Source of the DNA: Tepidanaerobacteraceae bacterium
Lineage (GTDB): Bacteria; Bacillota; Thermosediminibacteria; Thermosediminibacterales; Tepidanaerobacteraceae
DNA length: 64,000 nt
Assembly: GCA_024655905.1 (NCBI GenBank)
Contig: JANLFP010000005.1
Coordinates: 1 to 64,000 of the forward strand
Reading direction: 5' to 3'
Part shown: positions 425-47,385 of the stretch, piece after piece
Layout: each line of letters starts with the position of its first letter
How positions within the stretch are numbered: the first letter of the stretch is position 1
Position numbers and translations under genes: made by a program
The notes under the pieces: generated by a model
The model's input: only the letters and a program-made list of their open reading frames with translations
Told to the model about the DNA's origin: nothing
Databases searched by the model: none

Positions 425-465
425 GAAAAAAGTGCCGGAAATTGAATGTTTCCAGCACTTTTTTT
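425..465. terminator. Bidirectional terminator-like hairpin beside the IS
   Basis: AGTGCCGGAAA and TTTCCAGCACT pair around a short loop, flanked by an A-run on the left and a T-run on the right. Either strand could therefore terminate here. It lies 65 bp upstream of the transposase start and may sit inside the IS end. Confidence 0.55.
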
Positions 466-524
466 CTTGAGTTTACTTTATTTAACTGTTAAACTCGGGT
501 GTTACTTTCATATTTACTTTTATG

Positions 525-552
525 TTTACTTTTCTAAATTTAGTGCTATAAT
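525..552 (+). promoter_or_regulatory. Promoter of the antisense RNA
   Basis: TTTACT, a 16-nt spacer and a perfect TATAAT with an extended -10 (TGC directly upstream). The predicted start is near 559, directed at the 3' end of the toxin gene on the other strand. Confidence 0.6.
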
Positions 553-558
553 ATAGTC

Positions 559-649
559 AGAGGTAACCGGACCCGCAAAAGTGCGGTTGCCATATAGGGT
601 AATTAAAGAATAATCACCCGCTGGGGCATAGCAGGGTGATTATTTTTTT
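559..649 (+). ncRNA. Candidate antisense RNA of a type I toxin-antitoxin pair
   Basis: The promoter at 525-552 points into a short non-coding stretch that ends in a strong intrinsic terminator: AATAATCACCC (609-619) pairs with GGGTGATTATT (634-644), followed by Ts. The predicted RNA is about 90 nt. Its 3' end overlaps the last codons of the convergent small toxin gene at 640-750 by about 10 bp and would pair with the 3' untranslated region of the toxin mRNA. This is the arrangement known for txpA/RatA-like pairs. Transcription itself is inferred. Confidence 0.55.
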
Positions 650-750
650 CCTTTGCTTATCGCCTTAATCAGCACGACAATTAAGGAAATCAGCGATACG
701 GTAAGCATAGAGGATGCAATCATTAATGATAGAGCCTTGTATGTAGCCAT
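640..750 (-). CDS. Small holin-like membrane toxin (type I TA, TxpA/BsrG-like)
   Basis: A 36-codon frame starts at ATG 750, nine nucleotides after a strong AAGGAGGTG site, and ends in TAA at 640-642. The peptide begins MATYKALSLMIASSM, followed by a hydrophobic helix of about 18 residues (LTVSLISLIVVLI) and a basic tail ending KGKK. This matches the short Firmicutes 'putative holin-like toxin' peptides that insert in the membrane when their antisense RNA is lost. The stop codon lies inside the terminator of the convergent RNA at 559-649. The strong ribosome site, the helix and the neighbour together make this a real gene despite its size; toxicity is inferred from the family. Confidence 0.7.
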   Translation of the reverse strand: MATYKALSLMIASSMLTVSLISLIVVLIKAISKGKK

Positions 751-894
751 ACCGTACCACCTCCTTCCTTCTGATATAAAGGAGGTGGCAACCACACCCT
801 GCTCATCCAGTTACCTGAAATACATGGTATCATATTCTACATTTTTATTCAATTTGCAATTTATTTTTTCTTTCAAACAAGCAGAGGAAAATAG

Positions 895-1029
895 CCGGCC
901 GATCACGCGGCACTTCAAGCAGGCAAGGCACTCGGCAATGAGCGGCGCTTTTACATCGGTCGCCGCAAGTGGCGTCAACCCGAACTTCTTAAACTTGTCC
1001 ACCTCCGCACCAGAGATTGCACAGGGCAA
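895..1029 (-). pseudogene. Flavin reductase-domain (flavoredoxin-like) fragment
   Basis: About 45 residues read CAISGAEVDKFKKFGLTP and then VKAPLIAECLACLKCRV. This is the characteristic middle of flavin reductase-like FMN-binding proteins (a 'SG.DVDKF..FGLTP' block followed by 'APLI.EC...ECRV'). No matching N-terminal or C-terminal part is present: the frame runs into unrelated low-complexity sequence before it stops at 811. It is therefore a decayed fragment, not a gene. Identification rests on motif memory; the surrounding 800-1320 stretch holds other broken pieces. Confidence 0.55.
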
Positions 1030-1044
1030 AAAAGAGCGGAAAGC

Positions 1045-1155
1045 TTGAATAAATACAGAGGCCTTTTGACCAAAGCGGCAGTCATCTTCATCGTAGCTAC
1101 ATGGATCTTAGTAGCCAAGGTCGAAGCTGTCAGAGTGCCGGTGATGAACTTTTAA
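1045..1155 (+). CDS. Possible 36-residue single-helix membrane peptide
   Basis: A TTG-started frame (LNKYRGLLTKAAVIFIVATW...) encodes a basic N-terminus, one hydrophobic helix of about 16 residues and a short tail ending VPVMNF. The upstream GAGCGGAA is only a weak ribosome site. I do not recognise it. It could be a remnant, or a second small membrane peptide near the toxin gene at 640-750, which has the same length. Evidence is composition only. Confidence 0.25.
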   Translation: MNKYRGLLTKAAVIFIVATWILVAKVEAVRVPVMNF

Positions 1156-1168
1156 GCATTATGATGTA

Positions 1169-1312
1169 ATGTTTTCCCTTTACACCGGCGATGGTGAAGA
1201 AATAAGAGAAGTATCGGGAAAGGTAACGCTGGACGGGAAGCTGATTTTTTCCAAAGAAGAGACAGGCAGATTCCCTGAGCCGGGCGAAGTGGAAAATAAA
1301 ATAATATGTTGA
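1169..1312 (+). pseudogene. SelT/SelW/SelH (Rdx)-like C-terminal fragment
   Basis: A 47-codon frame contains VTLDGKLIFSKEETGRFPEP followed by GEV. This is the very typical C-terminal block of the Rdx thioredoxin-fold family. The redox CxxC/CxxU motif that should lie at the N-terminus of a roughly 70-90 residue protein is absent, and no ribosome site precedes the ATG. I therefore read it as a truncated relic. It ends 11 bp before a bidirectional hairpin terminator. Confidence 0.5.
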
Positions 1313-1323
1313 GAGCATAAAAT

Positions 1324-1366
1324 AGGGGCTGTTTTCAATTTTTTTTGAAACAGCCTCTGTTTTATT
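1324..1366. terminator. Bidirectional terminator between relic and Rpn gene
   Basis: AGGGGCTGTTTTCA pairs with TGAAACAGCCTCT around a T-rich loop; TTTTATTT follows on the + strand and an A/T run on the other. It serves the Rpn gene that ends at 1413 on the minus strand. Confidence 0.6.
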
Positions 1367-1412
1367 TAAGCCTGGCTCCTCATCATAGCCTATATCATGC
1401 TTATGCTACGCT

Positions 1413-2432
1413 TTAATTTGCTTGCAGTCTTAATATTTCTTCTTCAGGCAAGCCGGTAATTTCCATTATTTCTTTTACATTTCTGCCTTTATTTAGCAGT
1501 TTTCTTGCTATTTCTAACTTGGCTTCCAACATGCCTTTTTCAATGCCTTTTTCTATCCCTTTTTCTATCCCTTTTTCTATCCCTTTTTCCATACCGATAA
1601 TTTCTCTTTTCCGAAATTCTTCCTGTAAAGCTCTTTCAAGGTTATATATCATCTCATCCACCTCCTCGCTTTCTTCTATTACTTCCGAAAGCTCTCGCTT
1701 TTCCTCCTCGGGCAGTCCCCTTACTATGACTCTTTTCAACCATGTCTTGAACAGGAGAAATTCTTCGGGGCTCAATTTTTTCAGAACATCTATGAGTTTC
1801 TGCAATCTTTGCTTTAGCTTTTCTATATCGGCTTTCTGGTCGATTAGAAATACCGCTCCTATAAGGTTGGACAGTCCCATAAGTTCTTCTTCGCTATACC
1901 GGTTTACATCTACCAGGATGTATTCAAAGTCCAGCACCTGTTGTTTGAAAATCTCCTGGCCATTCAGGGTGTTTCTAAAGTTCATAGACGCTGTCCAGTT
2001 GTTTTCACCGTTGTATAATACTATTGGAATAATGGCGGGAAGTCTGAAATCTTTTCTTTCTGTTTCTGCCTTCGGTAAATCTTTAAGCATGCTTCTCCAT
2101 ATTTCCACCATGTAGAGCAGCAATCTATAAGGCATTTGAAAATCTACGGTTGACTGCAGTTCCAATAATACATAGAAAATTACTTCTTTGTTTTCTATTT
2201 TCAGTTTGTAGACTATATCTGCTTCTTTTTCGTCAAAGTCGGGTAAGATGAATGATTTATCTATTTTTTCTATTTTGTTTTCGTCGATTTGTTCTGCCCA
2301 TTCATAATTTACGAAGCTTTTTATTAGCTCCAGAAATACCCGCTTGCTGGACAGTAAAAACTTATAGCCTTTGTCGTATTTGTTATGGAGGGGTTTTTCG
2401 CCGGTATTTATTTGGTTATCCTCAGTTGCCAT
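1413..2432 (-). CDS. Rpn family PD-(D/E)XK nuclease / putative transposase
   Basis: The 339-residue product resembles the Rpn (YhgA-like, PF04754 type) family, whose members are DNA endonucleases linked to RecA-independent recombination. The N-terminus carries HNKYDKGYKFLLSSKRVF and the core FYVLLELQSTVDFQMPYRLL, where the E-L-Q triplet after a hydrophobic strand fits the PD-(D/E)XK nuclease fold (D66 region, then E-x-Q). Residues about 280-300 are a tandem EKGI repeat encoded by 12-bp DNA repeats, and a helical C-terminus with NVKEIMEITGLPEEEILRL follows, as in many family members. GAGGG precedes the ATG by 6 nt. It stands alone between terminators in a region of mobile elements, consistent with horizontal movement. 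Confidence 0.75.
   Translation of the reverse strand: MATEDNQINTGEKPLHNKYDKGYKFLLSSKRVFLELIKSFVNYEWAEQIDENKIEKIDKSFILPDFDEKEADIVYKLKIENKEVIFYVLLELQSTVDFQMPYRLLLYMVEIWRSMLKDLPKAETERKDFRLPAIIPIVLYNGENNWTASMNFRNTLNGQEIFKQQVLDFEYILVDVNRYSEEELMGLSNLIGAVFLIDQKADIEKLKQRLQKLIDVLKKLSPEEFLLFKTWLKRVIVRGLPEEEKRELSEVIEESEEVDEMIYNLERALQEEFRKREIIGMEKGIEKGIEKGIEKGIEKGMLEAKLEIARKLLNKGRNVKEIMEITGLPEEEILRLQAN
1531..1591 (-). repeat. In-frame 12-bp tandem repeat inside the Rpn gene
   Basis: About five copies of a 12-bp unit (TCTATCCCTTTT on the + strand) encode successive EKGI/EKGM tetrads. Four central units are almost identical, so copy number could change by slippage without shifting the frame. Confidence 0.85.
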
Positions 2433-2655
2433 AATGTTCCCTCTTTTTTATATTTGATTTCAATATAATATGGTTTTTGATATGTCTTTTTCATGTATTA
2501 TATCACAGATTTCATGCTACTGCAAAAGCTTTTCATGCTCTTAGCCCATAATTCGCGCGCAATCTTTCCAGATTTCCTAAATCTTCCATTTCTTCCCAAT
2601 CTAAAAAATGAAATTTGTGATATAATCAGAGTTTAACAGTTCTATTAATAAAAAA

Positions 2656-2683
2656 TTCCTTGTGAATCAGTAGCCACAAGGAA
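2656..2683. other. Perfect 9-bp inverted repeat (hairpin)
   Basis: TTCCTTGTG and CACAAGGAA flank a 10-nt loop. On the minus strand it is followed by ATTTTTTATT, so it looks like an intrinsic terminator for a minus-strand transcript, but no gene feeding it is visible. It may be left from a lost element. The stretch 2684-2940 to its right has no intact gene. Confidence 0.45.
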
Positions 2684-2924
2684 CTTGAGTAAAATATCAT
2701 GGTATAAAATTGTAGTCATATAATGGCTGCCATTTGCTTACATCTCTTCATGATTGTTTTGGCTTAATGCGCCGACAGGAAATTTTGCCGCCGAAAAATG
2801 TACACCAAAACTTCAAACGGTAACAGCTTTATCGAACGAATATTTCAGTTTGCGAAGCTCGCTGGCCGTTGGCAGCCTTAGATCGGCATGGATGCCAAAG
2901 GAATCAAGGTGACCCTCCCCCGAT

Positions 2925-3472
2925 TTGTAGGACACAGAGTTAAGAGTATATAATAAAAACAAAGAGGCGCTATGTCCATGGGAGAGTCCAGACGACAATA
3001 TGATGAAGAGTTCAAGCGCGATCTTTATTCCAAAAGGATTGTAGGTTATTCGATGCAGAAATACGTCACCCGCGAACTGGTTATCGAAGCTCTACATATG
3101 GCCATCACCAACCGCCGCCCCGACCCGGGATTGGTCATCCACTCCGACCGCGTCAGCCAGTATGCGAGCTGCGATTATCAGCGACTACTCCGGCAATATG
3201 GTTTTATCTGCTCCATGAGCCGTAAGGGAGATTGTCGGGATAATTCACCTATGGAAAGTTTCTTCAAAACATTGAAGACCGAACTCGTCTACAATCGCCG
3301 CTTCAAAAGCCGTGCAGAAGCCAAACTGGGAATTTTTGAGTACATCGAGGTTTTTTACAACCGTCTCAGGTTACATTCAGCCCTTGGGTATGAGACACCG
3401 GAAGAATTCGAGAAAAACTTTGAGAACCTGATAAAAGTGGCTTAAGTTAGTGTCCAATTAACCGGGGGAAGT
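2925..3472 (+). mobile_element. IS3-family element, internally deleted relic
   Basis: The left part begins near TGTAGGACACAGAGTTAAGAG and the right part ends near TGTCCAATTAACCGGGGGAA, a plausible pair of degenerate ends (TGTAGGACA / TGTCCAATTAA). Between them is a single frame joining the start of orfA to the end of orfB. A full IS3 element is 1.2-1.5 kb, so about two thirds is missing. The boundaries are approximate. Confidence 0.55.
2972..3445 (+). pseudogene. IS3-family transposase, OrfA start fused to OrfB end
   Basis: The 157-residue frame starts MGESRRQYDEEFKRD, the standard start of IS3 OrfA helix-turn-helix proteins. After about 15 residues it continues with LYSKRIVGYSMQKYVTRELV, which belongs to the rve integrase core of OrfB. 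It then runs through VIHSDRVSQYASCDYQ (the second catalytic Asp), DNSPMESFFKTLKTEL (the catalytic Glu) and a normal OrfB C-terminus (HSALGYETPEEFEK). The OrfA body and the OrfB N-terminus with the first catalytic Asp are deleted, yet the junction keeps the frame open. The product cannot be an active transposase. Confidence 0.8.
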
Positions 3473-3479
3473 TCAAACT

Positions 3480-3625
3480 TTCTCTTCCCTGACGGATAGG
3501 AGCTTGTGAGAAGCTCCAATACGGAACCCGCGCTTATAGTTCGCTGCGAAGCAAGTACCAAAGAAGGTTTGGAGCGTATCAAGTCGGAGATGAAGGAGGC
3601 ATTAAAGCCGCTGCAGCTTTTCTGA
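3480..3625 (+). pseudogene. Phosphomannomutase/phosphoglucomutase C-terminal fragment
   Basis: Immediately right of the IS3 relic a + strand frame reads LFPDG-stop-ELVRSSNTEPALIVRCEAS and then KEGLERIKSEMKEALKPL. The SNTEP loop with RCEA is the phosphate-binding C-terminal domain of alpha-D-phosphohexomutases. An in-frame TAG at 3497 stands where a Trp is usual (DGW-x-LVR). The preceding 400 or so residues are absent. This is the stump of a gene cut by the IS insertion or deletion, ending with TGA at 3623-3625 just before the glucosidase gene on the other strand. Confidence 0.65.
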
Positions 3626-3638
3626 ATGCGGTTCCTCT

Positions 3639-5123
<1,485 letters not shown>

Positions 5124-9352: not shown

Positions 9353-9386
9353 TTGAATCGGTCGTAGATTGTGAGCATAATTTCCG

Positions 9387-9450
9387 TTTAGACATTCATG
9401 AGCCAAAATGCATCACCATCAGATGGTGAAAATATTTATCTATATTTTCC
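9387..9450 (+). repeat. Dispersed three-hairpin repeat, copy A
   Basis: About 64 bp matching the family consensus TTTAGACATACATGATGCAA / AACGCATCACCATCAGATGA / TGAAAATATTTATCTATATT / TTC. This copy reads TTTAGACATTCATGAGCCAA at its left end and GGTGAAAATATTTATCTATA toward its right. The second and third inverted repeats (CATCAGATGGTG and GAAAATA...TATTTTC) are preserved; the first is degraded. It lies 40 bp upstream of the phosphoesterase start. Confidence 0.8.
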
Positions 9451-20665: not shown

Positions 20666-20939
20666 CGGTGCACCTCCAGAAAAATTTACGAATGATATTT
20701 TATCACAAAGTTCATAAAAACTCAATATACAACAAGATAATTATGGCACATTTTTTATAAAAATCCTGAATTAATATGTCTTATATCAAATTTTGACACA
20801 TATTTCGATCAAATTATGCAGTTACATGATATACTTATTCCCATATCGAATATATTGAGGCATTTCTTTTTAAACATTTGTCAATAAAATTTTATCCTTT
20901 CATGATTTACGGGCTGAAATCCAGCGGGTTCAAACTTTC

Positions 20940-21003
20940 CCGAAAATATAGATAAATGTTTTCATCATCTGATGGTGATGCGTTTTTTATCATGTACGTC
21001 TAA
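20940..21003 (-). repeat. Dispersed three-hairpin repeat, copy B
   Basis: On the minus strand it reads TTAGACGTACATGATAAAAA then ACGCATCACCATCAGATGAT and GAAAACATTTATCTATATTT. It keeps the CATCA/TGATG palindrome and the A/T-rich third palindrome; the first hairpin has a changed loop. It sits in the 457-bp gap between secG and the aldehyde dehydrogenase gene, which otherwise holds only the terminator at 21023-21072. Confidence 0.8.
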
Positions 21004-21022
21004 TCGCTTATTAGCCAAAAAT

Positions 21023-21122: not shown

Positions 21123-22562
21123 TCATCTGTATTTTAGATAAACCACCTTGGTCTGCAGGAATTCCTCCATGCCGTGCCTGCCGTCATCTCCGCCGATGCC
21201 TGATTTTTTCCAGCCCGCATGGTAGCCGTTGATGGCCTCTCCCTGCTGTCGGTTTATATAAAGTTCTCCGGCTTCAATGCTGTTTGCTACTTCAAAAGCC
21301 GTGCTGAGATCATTGGTGTATAAACTGGAGGTCAGACCGTACTCGCAGTCGTTTGCCAGCTCCAGCGCCTCCTCCAGGGTTTTGAAAGTCATTATCGGAA
21401 GCACGGGCCCGAAGATTTCTCTTTGCATTACATCCATGTCCTGCCTGCAGTTCATCAGCACAGTAGGCTCATAGAAACTGCCTCTTTTGAGATGCTCTGG
21501 CGCCTTACCCCCTATGAGCACCTCTGCTCCCTCTTCCACAGCTTTTTTAACCAGGCCATCCACGAATTTTACTGCGCCGTGGTTTATGAGCGGGCCCATG
21601 GTGACTTTGGGGTCTGCCAGGCCGTCGCCTATGGTGATTTTCTTCATCAACTCCATCACTTTATCCGTAAATTCTTCAGCCACTTTCTCATGCACGTACA
21701 CCCTCTCCACGCAGTTGCACACCTGTCCGGCATTGATGGTCTTAGACCCCACTATGCACCTGGCCGCAAGGTCCAGGTCTGCATCATCCATGACTATGGC
21801 CGGTGCTTTTCCGCCCAATTCCAGGGAGACCTTTGTGATATTGTGTGAACACATCTCCATTATCCGGGCGCCGGTCTCCCCACTTCCCGTGAAGGTCACC
21901 ATGCTGACCGCAGGGTTTGTGCATATGGCCTTTCCGATTTCTGCACCTTTTCCGCAAACCACATTTACTATTCCCTTCGGAAGGCCAACTTCCTGGACAA
22001 TTTTGGCAAATTCTAGGGCACAGTTGGGTGTCTCGCTGCTGGGCTTTATGACCACACCATTGCCGGTTATGAGAGCCGGCGCCACCTTTCTGACCAGGAT
22101 GCTGAAAGGGGAGTTCCAGGGCACTATGCATGCCACAACTCCCATGGGTTCCTTGCATATGAATATATTTTCCTTTTCATTATCGCTGGGGACAATTTCC
22201 CCCTCAATTCTGAGAGCCCATTCTGCGTGATATTCCATCCGCTCTGCGGCTTTTTTCACTTCACTTACCGCCTGCGGAAGGGGCTTGCCCTGCTCTTGGG
22301 TCACAACTGCACCCAGTTTTTCGGCATTTTCCACTATTTTCGCAGCCATCTTCTTCAGGTAGTCAGCGCGCTTTGAAGGCGAAAACCTTCTCCACTGCTT
22401 CTGAGCCCTTCTGCAGGCCTCCACGGCTCTTGCCACGTCCTCTGCTGTGCACTGCGGCACCCGGCTTATCACTTCGTCTGTGGCGGGGTTGATCACATCA
22501 AAGCAATTACCAGAACTCGATTCCACGAACTCACCGTCGATAAAAACCTTGTATCTTACCAT
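21123..22562 (-). CDS. NAD-dependent aldehyde dehydrogenase (AldA-like)
   Basis: A 479-residue ALDH-superfamily enzyme of normal length. Substrate-channel and NAD motifs are present: the catalytic Glu is in LELGGKAPAIV, the catalytic Cys in NAGQVCNCVERVYV, and the NAD-binding segment in VPWNSPFSILV and TFTGSGETG. Overall layout resembles lactaldehyde/glycolaldehyde dehydrogenases. It lies just downstream of two decayed ALDH genes on the same strand, and its first codons follow the second relic by only 10 bp, so transcription may originate upstream of the relics. Start at ATG 22562; upstream ribosome site (GGGTGAATAATTGGG) is weak. Confidence 0.85.
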   Translation of the reverse strand: MVRYKVFIDGEFVESSSGNCFDVINPATDEVISRVPQCTAEDVARAVEACRRAQKQWRRFSPSKRADYLKKMAAKIVENAEKLGAVVTQEQGKPLPQAVSEVKKAAERMEYHAEWALRIEGEIVPSDNEKENIFICKEPMGVVACIVPWNSPFSILVRKVAPALITGNGVVIKPSSETPNCALEFAKIVQEVGLPKGIVNVVCGKGAEIGKAICTNPAVSMVTFTGSGETGARIMEMCSHNITKVSLELGGKAPAIVMDDADLDLAARCIVGSKTINAGQVCNCVERVYVHEKVAEEFTDKVMELMKKITIGDGLADPKVTMGPLINHGAVKFVDGLVKKAVEEGAEVLIGGKAPEHLKRGSFYEPTVLMNCRQDMDVMQREIFGPVLPIMTFKTLEEALELANDCEYGLTSSLYTNDLSTAFEVANSIEAGELYINRQQGEAINGYHAGWKKSGIGGDDGRHGMEEFLQTKVVYLKYR

Positions 22563-22571
22563 CCCAATTAT

Positions 22572-22950
22572 TCACCCTCTCCATGTTTTAAAATTGCCAG
22601 CTGCATGACACAGCCTCCGCTCTTTTTGAGTATCGCATATCGTTTCAAATTCAATAATAGGAAATACTGGCCCAAAAACTTCCATTTCAAAGATGATCAT
22701 GGCATCGTTGCCGCCAAGTTCTAAAAAGACACGATGCAAATAAGAGGCAGCGATCTGGGCTATCTCTCTACCGGCTTCAGTACTACCTGTCATACTGACC
22801 GCATTAATTTTATTGTTGGCCACTAGCCATTTACCCACTTTAGCTCCTCTACCCGTTATTATCTGTACAGCATTTTCTGGGATTCCAGCTTCCAATAACA
22901 GCTCAGTCATCCTGATAAGAGCGAGAGGATCTTCAGTAGACGGTTGGTGC
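22572..22950 (-). pseudogene. Aldehyde dehydrogenase fragment, both ends missing
   Basis: The frame contains PSTEDPLALIRMTELLLEAG, then QIITGRGAKVGKWLVANNKI, then SMTGSTEAG and VFLELGGNDAMIIFE. This is the NAD-binding domain of an ALDH with the catalytic Glu. It then jumps to MEVFGPVFPIIEFET, skipping the catalytic Cys domain, and ends RRLCHAAGNF before unrelated residues. Two deletions are therefore visible. The closing RLCHAAGNF block is the same one seen at the deletion joint of the neighbouring relic at 23227-24112. Confidence 0.75.
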
Positions 22951-23226: not shown

Positions 23227-24112
23227 TTAAACCTCATTCATGAATAGATATCTGTACTCCATCGGCGGGACAAACGTTTCGCTTACAGTCCTCATACTCG
23301 ACCACCTCGGCAGGTTCATCTTGCTCCCAGCTTTATCGTTTGTTCCAGAAGCCCTGCTGCCTCCGAAGGGCTGCTGTCCTACTACTGCCCCCGTAGGCTT
23401 GTTGTTTATATAAAAGTTACCGGCTGCATGGCATAACCATCGCTCCATCTGTACTATCGCATTCCGTGGAAGCGGGCTTCCATAAGACCACATTTCCCAT
23501 TATAGCCGGTGCAGTTATCAGATTGCACGCTATGGCCGTAAAATTAAAGGGAGTTACTGCAAAAACATACCCTTCCAGGGGCCTGTATTCCATCCTGTTC
23601 CAAACATTTTGCGATGAATATGGTTGCTCACCATATATTTGTGTCATATTGTAAGCATTGAATCTCAGATAATCTATTAATTCACAGGCAGCATCGATTT
23701 CCGACTGGTAGACGGTTTTGCTCTGGTTCAACATCGTGGCGCCGTTGAGGACCGGTCGCCATGGTCCCGAGGTCATTTCCGCTGCCTTCAAAAATATAGA
23801 GGCTCCATGTTCCCATGGCATGTTTTCCCACTGGCTTTTAGCTTTTAGGGCTGATTCAACAGCTGTTTGAACTTCTTTTTCGCCAGCCTTGTGATATATA
23901 GCCAACACATGATGCCTATCGTGCGGAATGATGCATTTTTCAGCATTTCCGGTCCTGATTTCCCTGCCTCCTATAATAAGTGGGATCTCAATTTCTATCT
24001 CTCTCATCCTTTTCAGTTGCTCTTTTAAGACTGTTTTTTCAGCACTGCCGGGTGCATAGTTTAATGTCCGCTCATTCTGGGGTCTCTCCATTCTAAAAAG
24101 GCCATTTGCCAT
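23227..24112 (-). pseudogene. 1-pyrroline-5-carboxylate dehydrogenase, internally deleted
   Basis: The N-terminal piece (24112 to about 23475) matches P5C dehydrogenase: FNAYNMTQIYGEQPYSSQNV, then NRMEYRPLEGYVFAVTPFNF and TAIACNLITAPAIMGNVVLW. The frame then breaks after KPAST. The C-terminal piece (about 23440 to 23227) reads CHAAGNFYINNKPTGAVVGQ, then PFGGSRASGTNDKAGSKMNL and ETFVPPMEYRYLF. Some 250 residues with the catalytic Cys and Glu are missing, so it cannot function. It is preceded by a long structured leader with its own promoter at 24506-24535, which may still be transcribed. Confidence 0.85.
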
Positions 24113-24318
24113 TCGAAAATACCTCCTGTTTTTGTTTTATAGCGGGCGCCCCGGCATTTCAGAAGTTGATGCAAATATACCCCGGTCAACCAATCCATCG
24201 CCTGTTGTACGTGAATTTAAACGATACGGTCAGTTTCTTATCACCCATACCGGCATTTGAATGTAAATAGTTGCAGTTGCGTGATTATGACAACCGGCTT
24301 ATTTTAAGAATTACTACG

Positions 24319-24475
24319 AAAAATCCGCCCTGTGGAAATCACAAGGGCGGACTATTACCGTCATCCGCACTTTCTCTTCTTTCCACACCGGGAGGCGCAA
24401 CCGTTTCCAGCTACACCCTAACGGTCTTAAAACCCTGGATTGTATCTTTAGGTTAAAAAGACTCGAAGAGGTTTA
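24319..24475 (-). promoter_or_regulatory. Structured leader with terminator; candidate Moco/Tuco riboswitch
   Basis: A minus-strand leader about 170 nt long lies between a strong promoter and an intrinsic terminator (ATCCGCCCTGTG pairs with CACAGGGCGGAT, 24319-24352, T-run). Its 3' part reads GCGCCTCCCGGTGTGGAAAG followed by AAGAGAAAG (24370-24398). The GCCTCCCGG...GGAAAGA...GAAAG pattern recalls the Moco RNA motif, and the direct joining of CCCGG to the next segment would fit the tungsten-cofactor (Tuco) variant that lacks one stem. Pairing ACCGTT/AACGGT and CTCTTC/GAAGAG supports a folded RNA. The assignment is from memory of the consensus and is tentative; the leader itself is well supported. 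Confidence 0.5.
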
Positions 24476-24505
24476 AATAAACGGGCATTTTCAATTTTCA
24501 TTTTT

Positions 24506-24535
24506 ATTTTAATATACTGAGTGTACTTATGTCAA
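24506..24535 (-). promoter_or_regulatory. Promoter of the structured leader
   Basis: On the minus strand TTGACA (24530-24535), 18-nt spacer, TAAAAT (24506-24511). Transcription would begin near 24498. Confidence 0.7.
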
Positions 24536-24707: not shown

Positions 24708-24725
24708 CAGGTATTGATATAAATG

Positions 24726-24788
24726 TTTAGACATACATTATGCAAAACGCATTACCATCAGATGATGAAAATATATATCTATATTTTC
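24726..24788 (+). repeat. Dispersed three-hairpin repeat, copy C
   Basis: It reads TTTAGACATACATTATGCAA, AACGCATTACCATCAGATGA, TGAAAATATATATCTATATT, TTC. All three inverted repeats can form. It ends ten bases from the eno stop codon, in the 3' untranslated region of the glycolytic operon. Confidence 0.85.
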
Positions 24789-24797
24789 TGGATAGTA

Positions 24798-33457: not shown

Positions 33458-33584
33458 TTCATAACCCCCCCAAAGGCCGCAAAATGGTAAAACCCATATC
33501 TTTATTTATATAATATATATTCTATAAAACATCAATTTTTCCTCTTTTTTTTCAACAATTCCCCAAAATTAATAATCCTGTCCC

Positions 33585-33646
33585 AAAAATATGGATAAAT
33601 TTTCTCATCATTTGACTGTGATGCGTTTTGCATCATGTATGTCTAA
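33585..33646 (-). repeat. Dispersed three-hairpin repeat, copy D
   Basis: On the minus strand it reads TTAGACATACATGATGCAAA, ACGCATCACAGTCAAATGAT, GAGAAAATTTATCCATATTT. This copy preserves the first hairpin perfectly (TGATGC-AAAAC-GCATCA) but the second is degraded. It lies in the 319-bp gap between rpoN and the gene at 33777, which otherwise shows no gene. Confidence 0.8.
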
Positions 33647-47084: not shown

Positions 47085-47385
47085 TAAAAAACCCCTCGCC
47101 CAGCAAAGGGGCGAGAGGTTATGATTTCCCGCGGTACCACCCAAATTGACCTGCAACAAACAGGCCCTCTCATAAAGGGTACGAGACATAAAATGCCTTT
47201 ATACCCCCTTCCTTTTCACGGTGGAAGCTTCCGGTCACGCCTAATAGCTTTCGGGAAATATCCCGCGCATTCAGGTGACAGCTCCAGGGGGAACTTCAAA
47301 GGATTCCTTCATACCGGCTTTCACCTTCCCGGCTCGCTTTAAATCCGATAATCCATCTACTTTCCCCTGTCATGGCTGTTGAGCT
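47085..47385 (-). promoter_or_regulatory. T-box leader, probably tRNA-Phe specific
   Basis: The minus strand shows the T-box core GGGTGGTACCGCG (47128-47142 region), an intrinsic terminator (CCTCTCGCCC/GGGCGAGGGG with six Ts) and a long stem I with AGTAGA and GGTGAAAGCC. In the specifier loop the stretch TTTGAAGTTCCCCC places TTC, a Phe codon, after GAAG. Uncharged tRNA-Phe would stabilise the antiterminator and switch on pheA-aroF-tyrA-aroA. Specifier identity agrees with the first gene but should be confirmed by alignment. Confidence 0.92.

Follow-up and report, generated by a model that had tools for sequence, protein, structure and literature searches.

A P3-less Moco/Tuco riboswitch before a decaying P5C dehydrogenase gene: a proposed cofactor-controlled exchange between aldehyde-oxidising enzymes

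A P3-less aptamer of the molybdenum/tungsten cofactor (Moco/Tuco) riboswitch family was identified 5′ of a broken P5C dehydrogenase (P5CDH) gene in a 64-kb stretch of DNA, here called the window. P5CDH is a member of the NAD-type aldehyde dehydrogenase superfamily, acts on glutamate-γ-semialdehyde and needs neither metal cofactor. As the best reading of the analysis, we infer a cofactor-controlled exchange between aldehyde-oxidising enzymes, in which the riboswitch would act on transcription and turn P5CDH off in favour of aldehyde ferredoxin oxidoreductase (AOR); a probability of about 0.62 is given to this reading. The window's own genome is labelled G000, the genomes of relatives carry G numbers and their loci L numbers.

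The leader is located between the enolase gene (26084-24798) and a series of aldehyde dehydrogenase genes. The interval marked in the initial annotation does contain a real leader, but all of its elements lie on the minus strand, which is a correction. Following a search against Rfam, the aptamer (24480..24360) was matched to RF01055, the Moco/tungsten-cofactor riboswitch model, over its full length (positions 1-135) with 69.8 bits, the gathering score being 36 bits, and an E-value of 8.8e-15 for the whole window. Membership of the Moco family, initially put forward together with this covariance-model search as its check, was thereby borne out. Just two Rfam matches were found within the 64 kb, the RF01055 aptamer among them. 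A T-box leader (RF00230, 107.2 bits) was recorded at 47104-47382 on the minus strand. Our own covariance model, R1, the training set of which includes the window copy, gave the aptamer 106.4 bits. The aptamer is of the type that has no P3 stem, the P3 positions being deletions in the RF01055 alignment, and it shares this absence with the proposed Tuco (tungsten) subtype.

The promoter (24506..24535, minus strand; TTGACA-18-TAAAAT) matches the consensus at 11 of 12 positions, and an intrinsic terminator hairpin followed by T5 was recognised from sequence and fold at 24319..24351 on the same strand, so that both elements named in the initial annotation were recovered. Within the aptamer, the segment UGUGGAAA (24380..24387), which is the predicted antiterminator arm, is the exact complement of UUUCCACA (24331-24338) in the terminator; terminator and 8-nt complement make up the predicted expression platform 3′ of the aptamer. 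Two related copies of the leader, a second one in the own genome and one in G001, retain the terminator, carry an identical 3′ half of the aptamer and have the same promoter save for one inserted spacer base. The promoter spacer contains a near-palindrome, TACACTCAGTATA, unchanged in both of these copies despite differing flanks, which may be the operator of a protein regulator acting in addition to the riboswitch. A stretch of ~190 nt that separates the terminator from the P5CDH start codon (24125-24318) is present in the window copy only, being absent from the other two, and represents an insertion on this comparison.

Promoter-like and terminator-like consensus matches in the window are not commoner than in shuffles, and folding of the plus-strand interval gave an unremarkable plain energy (z −1.41); it is the covariance-model match that places the leader beyond chance. 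Across 23 P3-less sequences, the window copy included, 92.9% of the stem cells are paired and two-sided changes occur at 18 of 24 pairs. This pairing was reached by none of 500 shuffles, the structure having been taken from the same alignment, so that the result leans towards it. Conservation of the core among homologous leaders, on which the initial annotation had made its proposal depend, was thus found. The identity of the leader as a true RF01055 member is near certain, and the copy itself appears to be decaying.

Downstream, the P5C dehydrogenase pseudogene and the aldehyde genes expected from the initial annotation were both present on the minus strand. The pseudogene, of a type 1 P5C dehydrogenase, consists of two fragments, residues 1-218 (23459..24112; TIGR01236, 261.8 bits; 81% identity to the G001 protein) and residues 464-542 (23233..23469; TIGR01236, 100.2 bits; 82% identity), between which ~245 residues are missing owing to an internal deletion. 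As expected for a broken gene, both scores are below the TIGR01236 equivalog cut-off of 613.6 bits, which is passed by the P5CDH of relatives (G001, 791.4 bits; G326, 807.8 bits; L121, 783.7 bits). The first fragment has no internal stop and, compared with G001 over 218 codons (NG86), gave a dN of 0.105 and a dS of 1.56, indicating that selection acted on P5CDH until recently, over most of the period since the two lineages split. The P5CDH fragments are followed by a remnant of a second aldehyde dehydrogenase (22572..22910; PF00171, 84.7 bits over residues 2-75) and by an intact aldehyde dehydrogenase gene (21123..22562; NF007497, 676.1 bits, cut-off 500). A mobile element bounded by the inverted repeats 20934-21011 and 24719-24796 was considered and rejected. 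The arms belong to a dispersed ~70-nt repeat with 27 matches in the genome (in the window at 24719-24796, 20934-21011, 9386-9449 and 33573-33646), so the flanking pair is no evidence of a mobile unit.

The own genome contains three RF01055 matches, namely the window copy, C1:124113-124229 (68.9 bits) and C1:74918-75031 (44.2 bits). At C1:124113, promoter, aptamer and terminator are retained in front of a P5CDH reduced to 47 residues, and this stub is followed by the end of the neighbouring gene; the riboswitch-P5CDH unit hence occurs twice in the genome, with P5CDH broken in both. In G001, a genome of the same genus, an intact P5CDH of 543 residues is preceded by the same leader of promoter, aptamer and terminator (L033, 7259-7378 and 7455-9086). 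The initial suggestion that the original target gene had been lost or replaced was abandoned in view of this intact orthologous unit. Since the unit precedes an intact copy in G001 and two more lineages show the same pairing, the broken P5CDH is regarded as the target, and P5CDH as the native target of the window-type riboswitch is well supported.

Recurrence was assessed over P5CDH loci from several collections. In the phylum, 18 of 398 genomes, the own one among them, gave a match at 1e-100 or better; in the class, 5 of 26 did so at 1e-60. Matches were also obtained in 18 of 39 genomes from the phylum of L121, which is Candidatus Wallbacteria GWC2_49_35, and in two of three from the order of G326, neither of them new; from a wider genome-contig collection, the best 80 of 581 were kept. 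Among the 116 loci, at least two pairs are duplicates, with identical rows (L106/L060 and L158/L076), and five have less than 450 nt upstream. A riboswitch was found directly 5′ of P5CDH in six of the 116, the best 80 of 581 from the contig collection being counted among them: L033 (G001), L057 (G326), L058 (G367), L121, L152 (G446) and L153 (G447). It was missing at the other 110 in scans by Rfam and/or R1 (L070-L149 by R1 only, with L121 also by Rfam; the remaining loci by both). Outside the window's genus, the pairing is present in another Firmicutes family (two genomes) and in Wallbacteria and kin (three genomes); within the window's family, G002 carries a P5CDH at 65% identity and no riboswitch. 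In a tree of 117 P5CDH rows, the seven riboswitch-bearing ones, the window fragment included, are found in three places, and the starred branches force three changes. With 50 chosen rows only two changes are forced, and a single clade was not rejected by the AU test (p 0.10 to 0.13 in four tests). Cobalamin riboswitches were also observed 3′ of P5CDH in G326 (L057, 2588-2774, minus strand) and G367 (L058, 4400-4585, plus strand), and in G326 the gene after it encodes a PF06826 permease.

RF01055 matches were obtained in 219 of the 398 phylum genomes. At 89 other riboswitch loci, a set that left aside the three leaders of P5CDH in G000 and G001, no aldehyde dehydrogenase was detected downstream (0/89; blastp, two queries, E up to 1e-8). 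Sixty of these loci, mostly read for ~4 kb, are mostly best-scoring RF01055 matches and so not a random sample; 29 were read for ~1.5 kb. The idea that Moco riboswitches generally go with aldehyde dehydrogenases was rejected on this count. By eye, the first genes often resemble moeA, moaA, mobA or those of molybdate/tungstate-type binding proteins (uncounted), and AOR-like genes were detected by blastp at four of the 89 loci (L003, L030, L208 and L194). At L218 (G397, 440-4269), the genes downstream of a Moco riboswitch comprise one like nifH, two resembling nitrogenase component 1 and one with a MoeA N-terminal domain; this set is another unexpected riboswitch target. The second riboswitch of G326 (L243) lies 5′ of a molybdopterin-binding oxidoreductase-domain gene and the gene of an ABC_cobalt-type membrane protein, and the surroundings of the second riboswitch of G367 (L242) resemble it by eye.

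The direction of switching was predicted from fold energies. For the G001 leader, the antiterminator fold (−61.4 kcal/mol) stands against P1 plus terminator at −61.3 kcal/mol, and for the second own copy the values are −59.2 and −58.4 kcal/mol; in the minimum-energy fold of both, UGUGGAAA of the aptamer is paired with UUUCCACA of the terminator. Two balanced folds of this kind have the shape of an OFF switch. As the antiterminator consumes aptamer bases, the ligand should favour the terminator, and we infer that the cofactor would switch the P5CDH gene off. An exact 8-nt complement was reached by 9/1000 shuffles for G001, 18/1000 for the second copy and 13/1000 for the window, the three copies being related, so that these tests are not independent. 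In the window leader, 9 nt of the linker are gone and the terminator is preferred by 5.3 kcal/mol (−56.5 with the terminator vs −51.2 kcal/mol with the antiterminator); in the model, this loss would tip the leader to 'off', in keeping with decay. A terminator also follows the aptamer in L121 and G446, where the complement is at chance level (302/1000 and 149/1000 shuffles) and the fold with P1 and terminator is the more stable one by 10.0 and 4.3 kcal/mol, respectively. No terminator was found behind the aptamer in G326 and G367; in both, the predicted folds would allow CCUCC to pair with GGAGG around the ribosome-binding site.

In the own genome, a riboswitch precedes an operon with AOR (PF01314 and PF02730), and the same arrangement was found in G005 and G007 and, by R1 with 44.8 bits, in G001. 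AOR genes were present in all five riboswitch-P5CDH genomes tested, a set made up of G000, G001, G326, G367 and G409. Among four P5CDH genomes without a riboswitch at that place, AOR is clear in G251, there is a 44-residue match in G106 and none was found in G140 and G171; with four comparison genomes only, AOR presence is too sparse to count as a correlation. According to the cited passages of one study, a mutant without the usual aldehyde dehydrogenase was the source of a purified tungsten AOR of Aromatoleum, an enzyme that accepts a very wide range of aldehydes (PMC6365974). The riboswitch on the AOR operon, the AOR genes alongside and the Aromatoleum case led to the proposal that plentiful cofactor shuts off the NAD-type enzyme. 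That a cofactor riboswitch stands before an aldehyde gene not needing the cofactor likewise suggests a switch-off when a cofactor-dependent enzyme can serve. In short, when cofactor is absent, UGUGGAAA from the 3′ portion of the aptamer would pair with UUUCCACA in the terminator and transcription would enter P5CDH. With cofactor, the aptamer would hold UGUGGAAA, P1 would form and the terminator would halt transcription. The likely purpose would be to spare the NAD-type enzyme whenever AOR, the operon of which bears the same riboswitch, can work. The window unit would be a decaying version, with its internal deletion in P5CDH and its leader biased to 'off'.

The AOR leaders of G000, G005 and G007 show the reverse of the P5CDH layout. 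In their free fold, AAAGGAG, which forms the 3′ strand of P1, is drawn into the terminator hairpin; this fold lies below the P1-held fold by 8.9, 6.1 and 6.5 kcal/mol, respectively. As the hairpin takes the P1 3′ strand, the cofactor could loosen this terminator. It is conceivable, if rather doubtful, that Tuco works two opposite switches, stopping the NAD-type P5CDH and permitting the AOR operon. A shorter hairpin with the same U-run persists in these leaders when P1 is held. In G001, 12 nt are missing from the riboswitch of the AOR operon (L241, 2556-2685), the P1 3′ strand among them, and so this switch may be broken there. For both reasons, the reciprocal arrangement remains only the bold case; if true, an RNA-sensed metal cofactor would decide between metal-dependent and metal-free aldehyde oxidation in one cell.

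Several alternatives were weighed against the exchange. As to the ligand, the P3-less window aptamer makes the tungsten cofactor the probable and, from sequence, a plausible one, and AOR genes are present in the own genome. In Wallbacteria-type RNAs the P3 stem is present, so 'tungsten' does not follow for those. P3-bearing Moco-type RNAs were also observed upstream of the gene of a PBP_like_2 binding protein in G447 (L244, Pfam match) and G446 (L245). We take this protein to resemble the tungstate-binding TupA, in which case the rule that P3 means molybdenum would break in these two genomes. This speaks for the molybdenum cofactor as ligand, as does the fact that the P3 rule is a correlation. 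The cited passages of Regulski et al. 2008 (PMC2408646) bear on both sides: the P3-less type was tied there to the tungsten cofactor, with signs of Tuco metabolism in 17 of 19 organisms having P3-less RNAs, and deletion of P3 in E. coli left the specificity unchanged. On balance, a molybdenum ligand is considered somewhat unlikely. An ON switch, by which the cofactor would allow P5CDH expression, is quite improbable. This direction is known for some riboswitch classes and is not fixed by the folds of G326 and G367; against it, the antiterminator of G001 and the second own copy uses aptamer bases, and E. coli moaA, the sole tested member in the cited part of PMC2408646, is an OFF switch.

The riboswitch might also stand before P5CDH by chance or hitchhiking, without regulatory meaning, with which the small share of carriers (6/116) and the compatibility of a single origin and later losses with the AU test (p 0.126) would agree. 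This is very improbable, as each of the three lineages has retained it in different species, immediately 5′ of P5CDH and with matching orientation, as the leaders behind the aptamer differ, and as it is the only RF01055 match in the genome G409. A last alternative is compatible with the best explanation for the relatives: the window switch would still work, its present target being the intact aldehyde dehydrogenase 1.8 kb downstream (21123-22562), reached through dead genes. From the leader's own terminator up to this gene, no terminator-like site was seen on the minus strand, and the aptamer 3′ half stayed identical in the three copies though the dead gene has reached saturation at synonymous sites. 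Such a target is nevertheless unlikely, given a leader short of 9 linker nt with unbalanced folds, and a gene that was seen as part of the unit in the window's genome only.

If the exchange between aldehyde-oxidising enzymes is true, cofactor level would be used by cells to choose between enzymes, and P5CDH on/off would offer an approachable readout for what P3-less 'tungsten' aptamers sense. Moco/Tuco riboswitches have so far been described from genes making, importing or using the cofactor, and P5CDH is an unusual recurrent target; no description of it as a riboswitch target was found within the literature searched, where Regulski et al. 2008 was the only report retrieved on Moco riboswitches together with AOR. 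The window presents a case in which the regulated gene is dead and the switch still recognisable.

Among known systems, the RF01055 riboswitches in the cited passages of Regulski et al. 2008 (PMC2408646) have the same P3-less aptamer and also terminators behind the aptamer; their targets make, import or use the cofactor, whereas P5CDH is a non-user. The P3-less RNAs of Syntrophomonas wolfei described there precede putative sulphite oxidases, which are putative molybdoenzymes, unlike P5CDH, and a similar idea was raised in that text for two S. wolfei genes. The B12 riboswitch before metE, as presented in the cited part of PMC11260477, differs in its cofactor and RNA class, and metE shares its reaction with the B12-dependent counterpart, whereas for AOR and P5CDH an overlap in substrates is no more than likely; there, likewise, a cofactor-sensing RNA governs a cofactor-independent enzyme.
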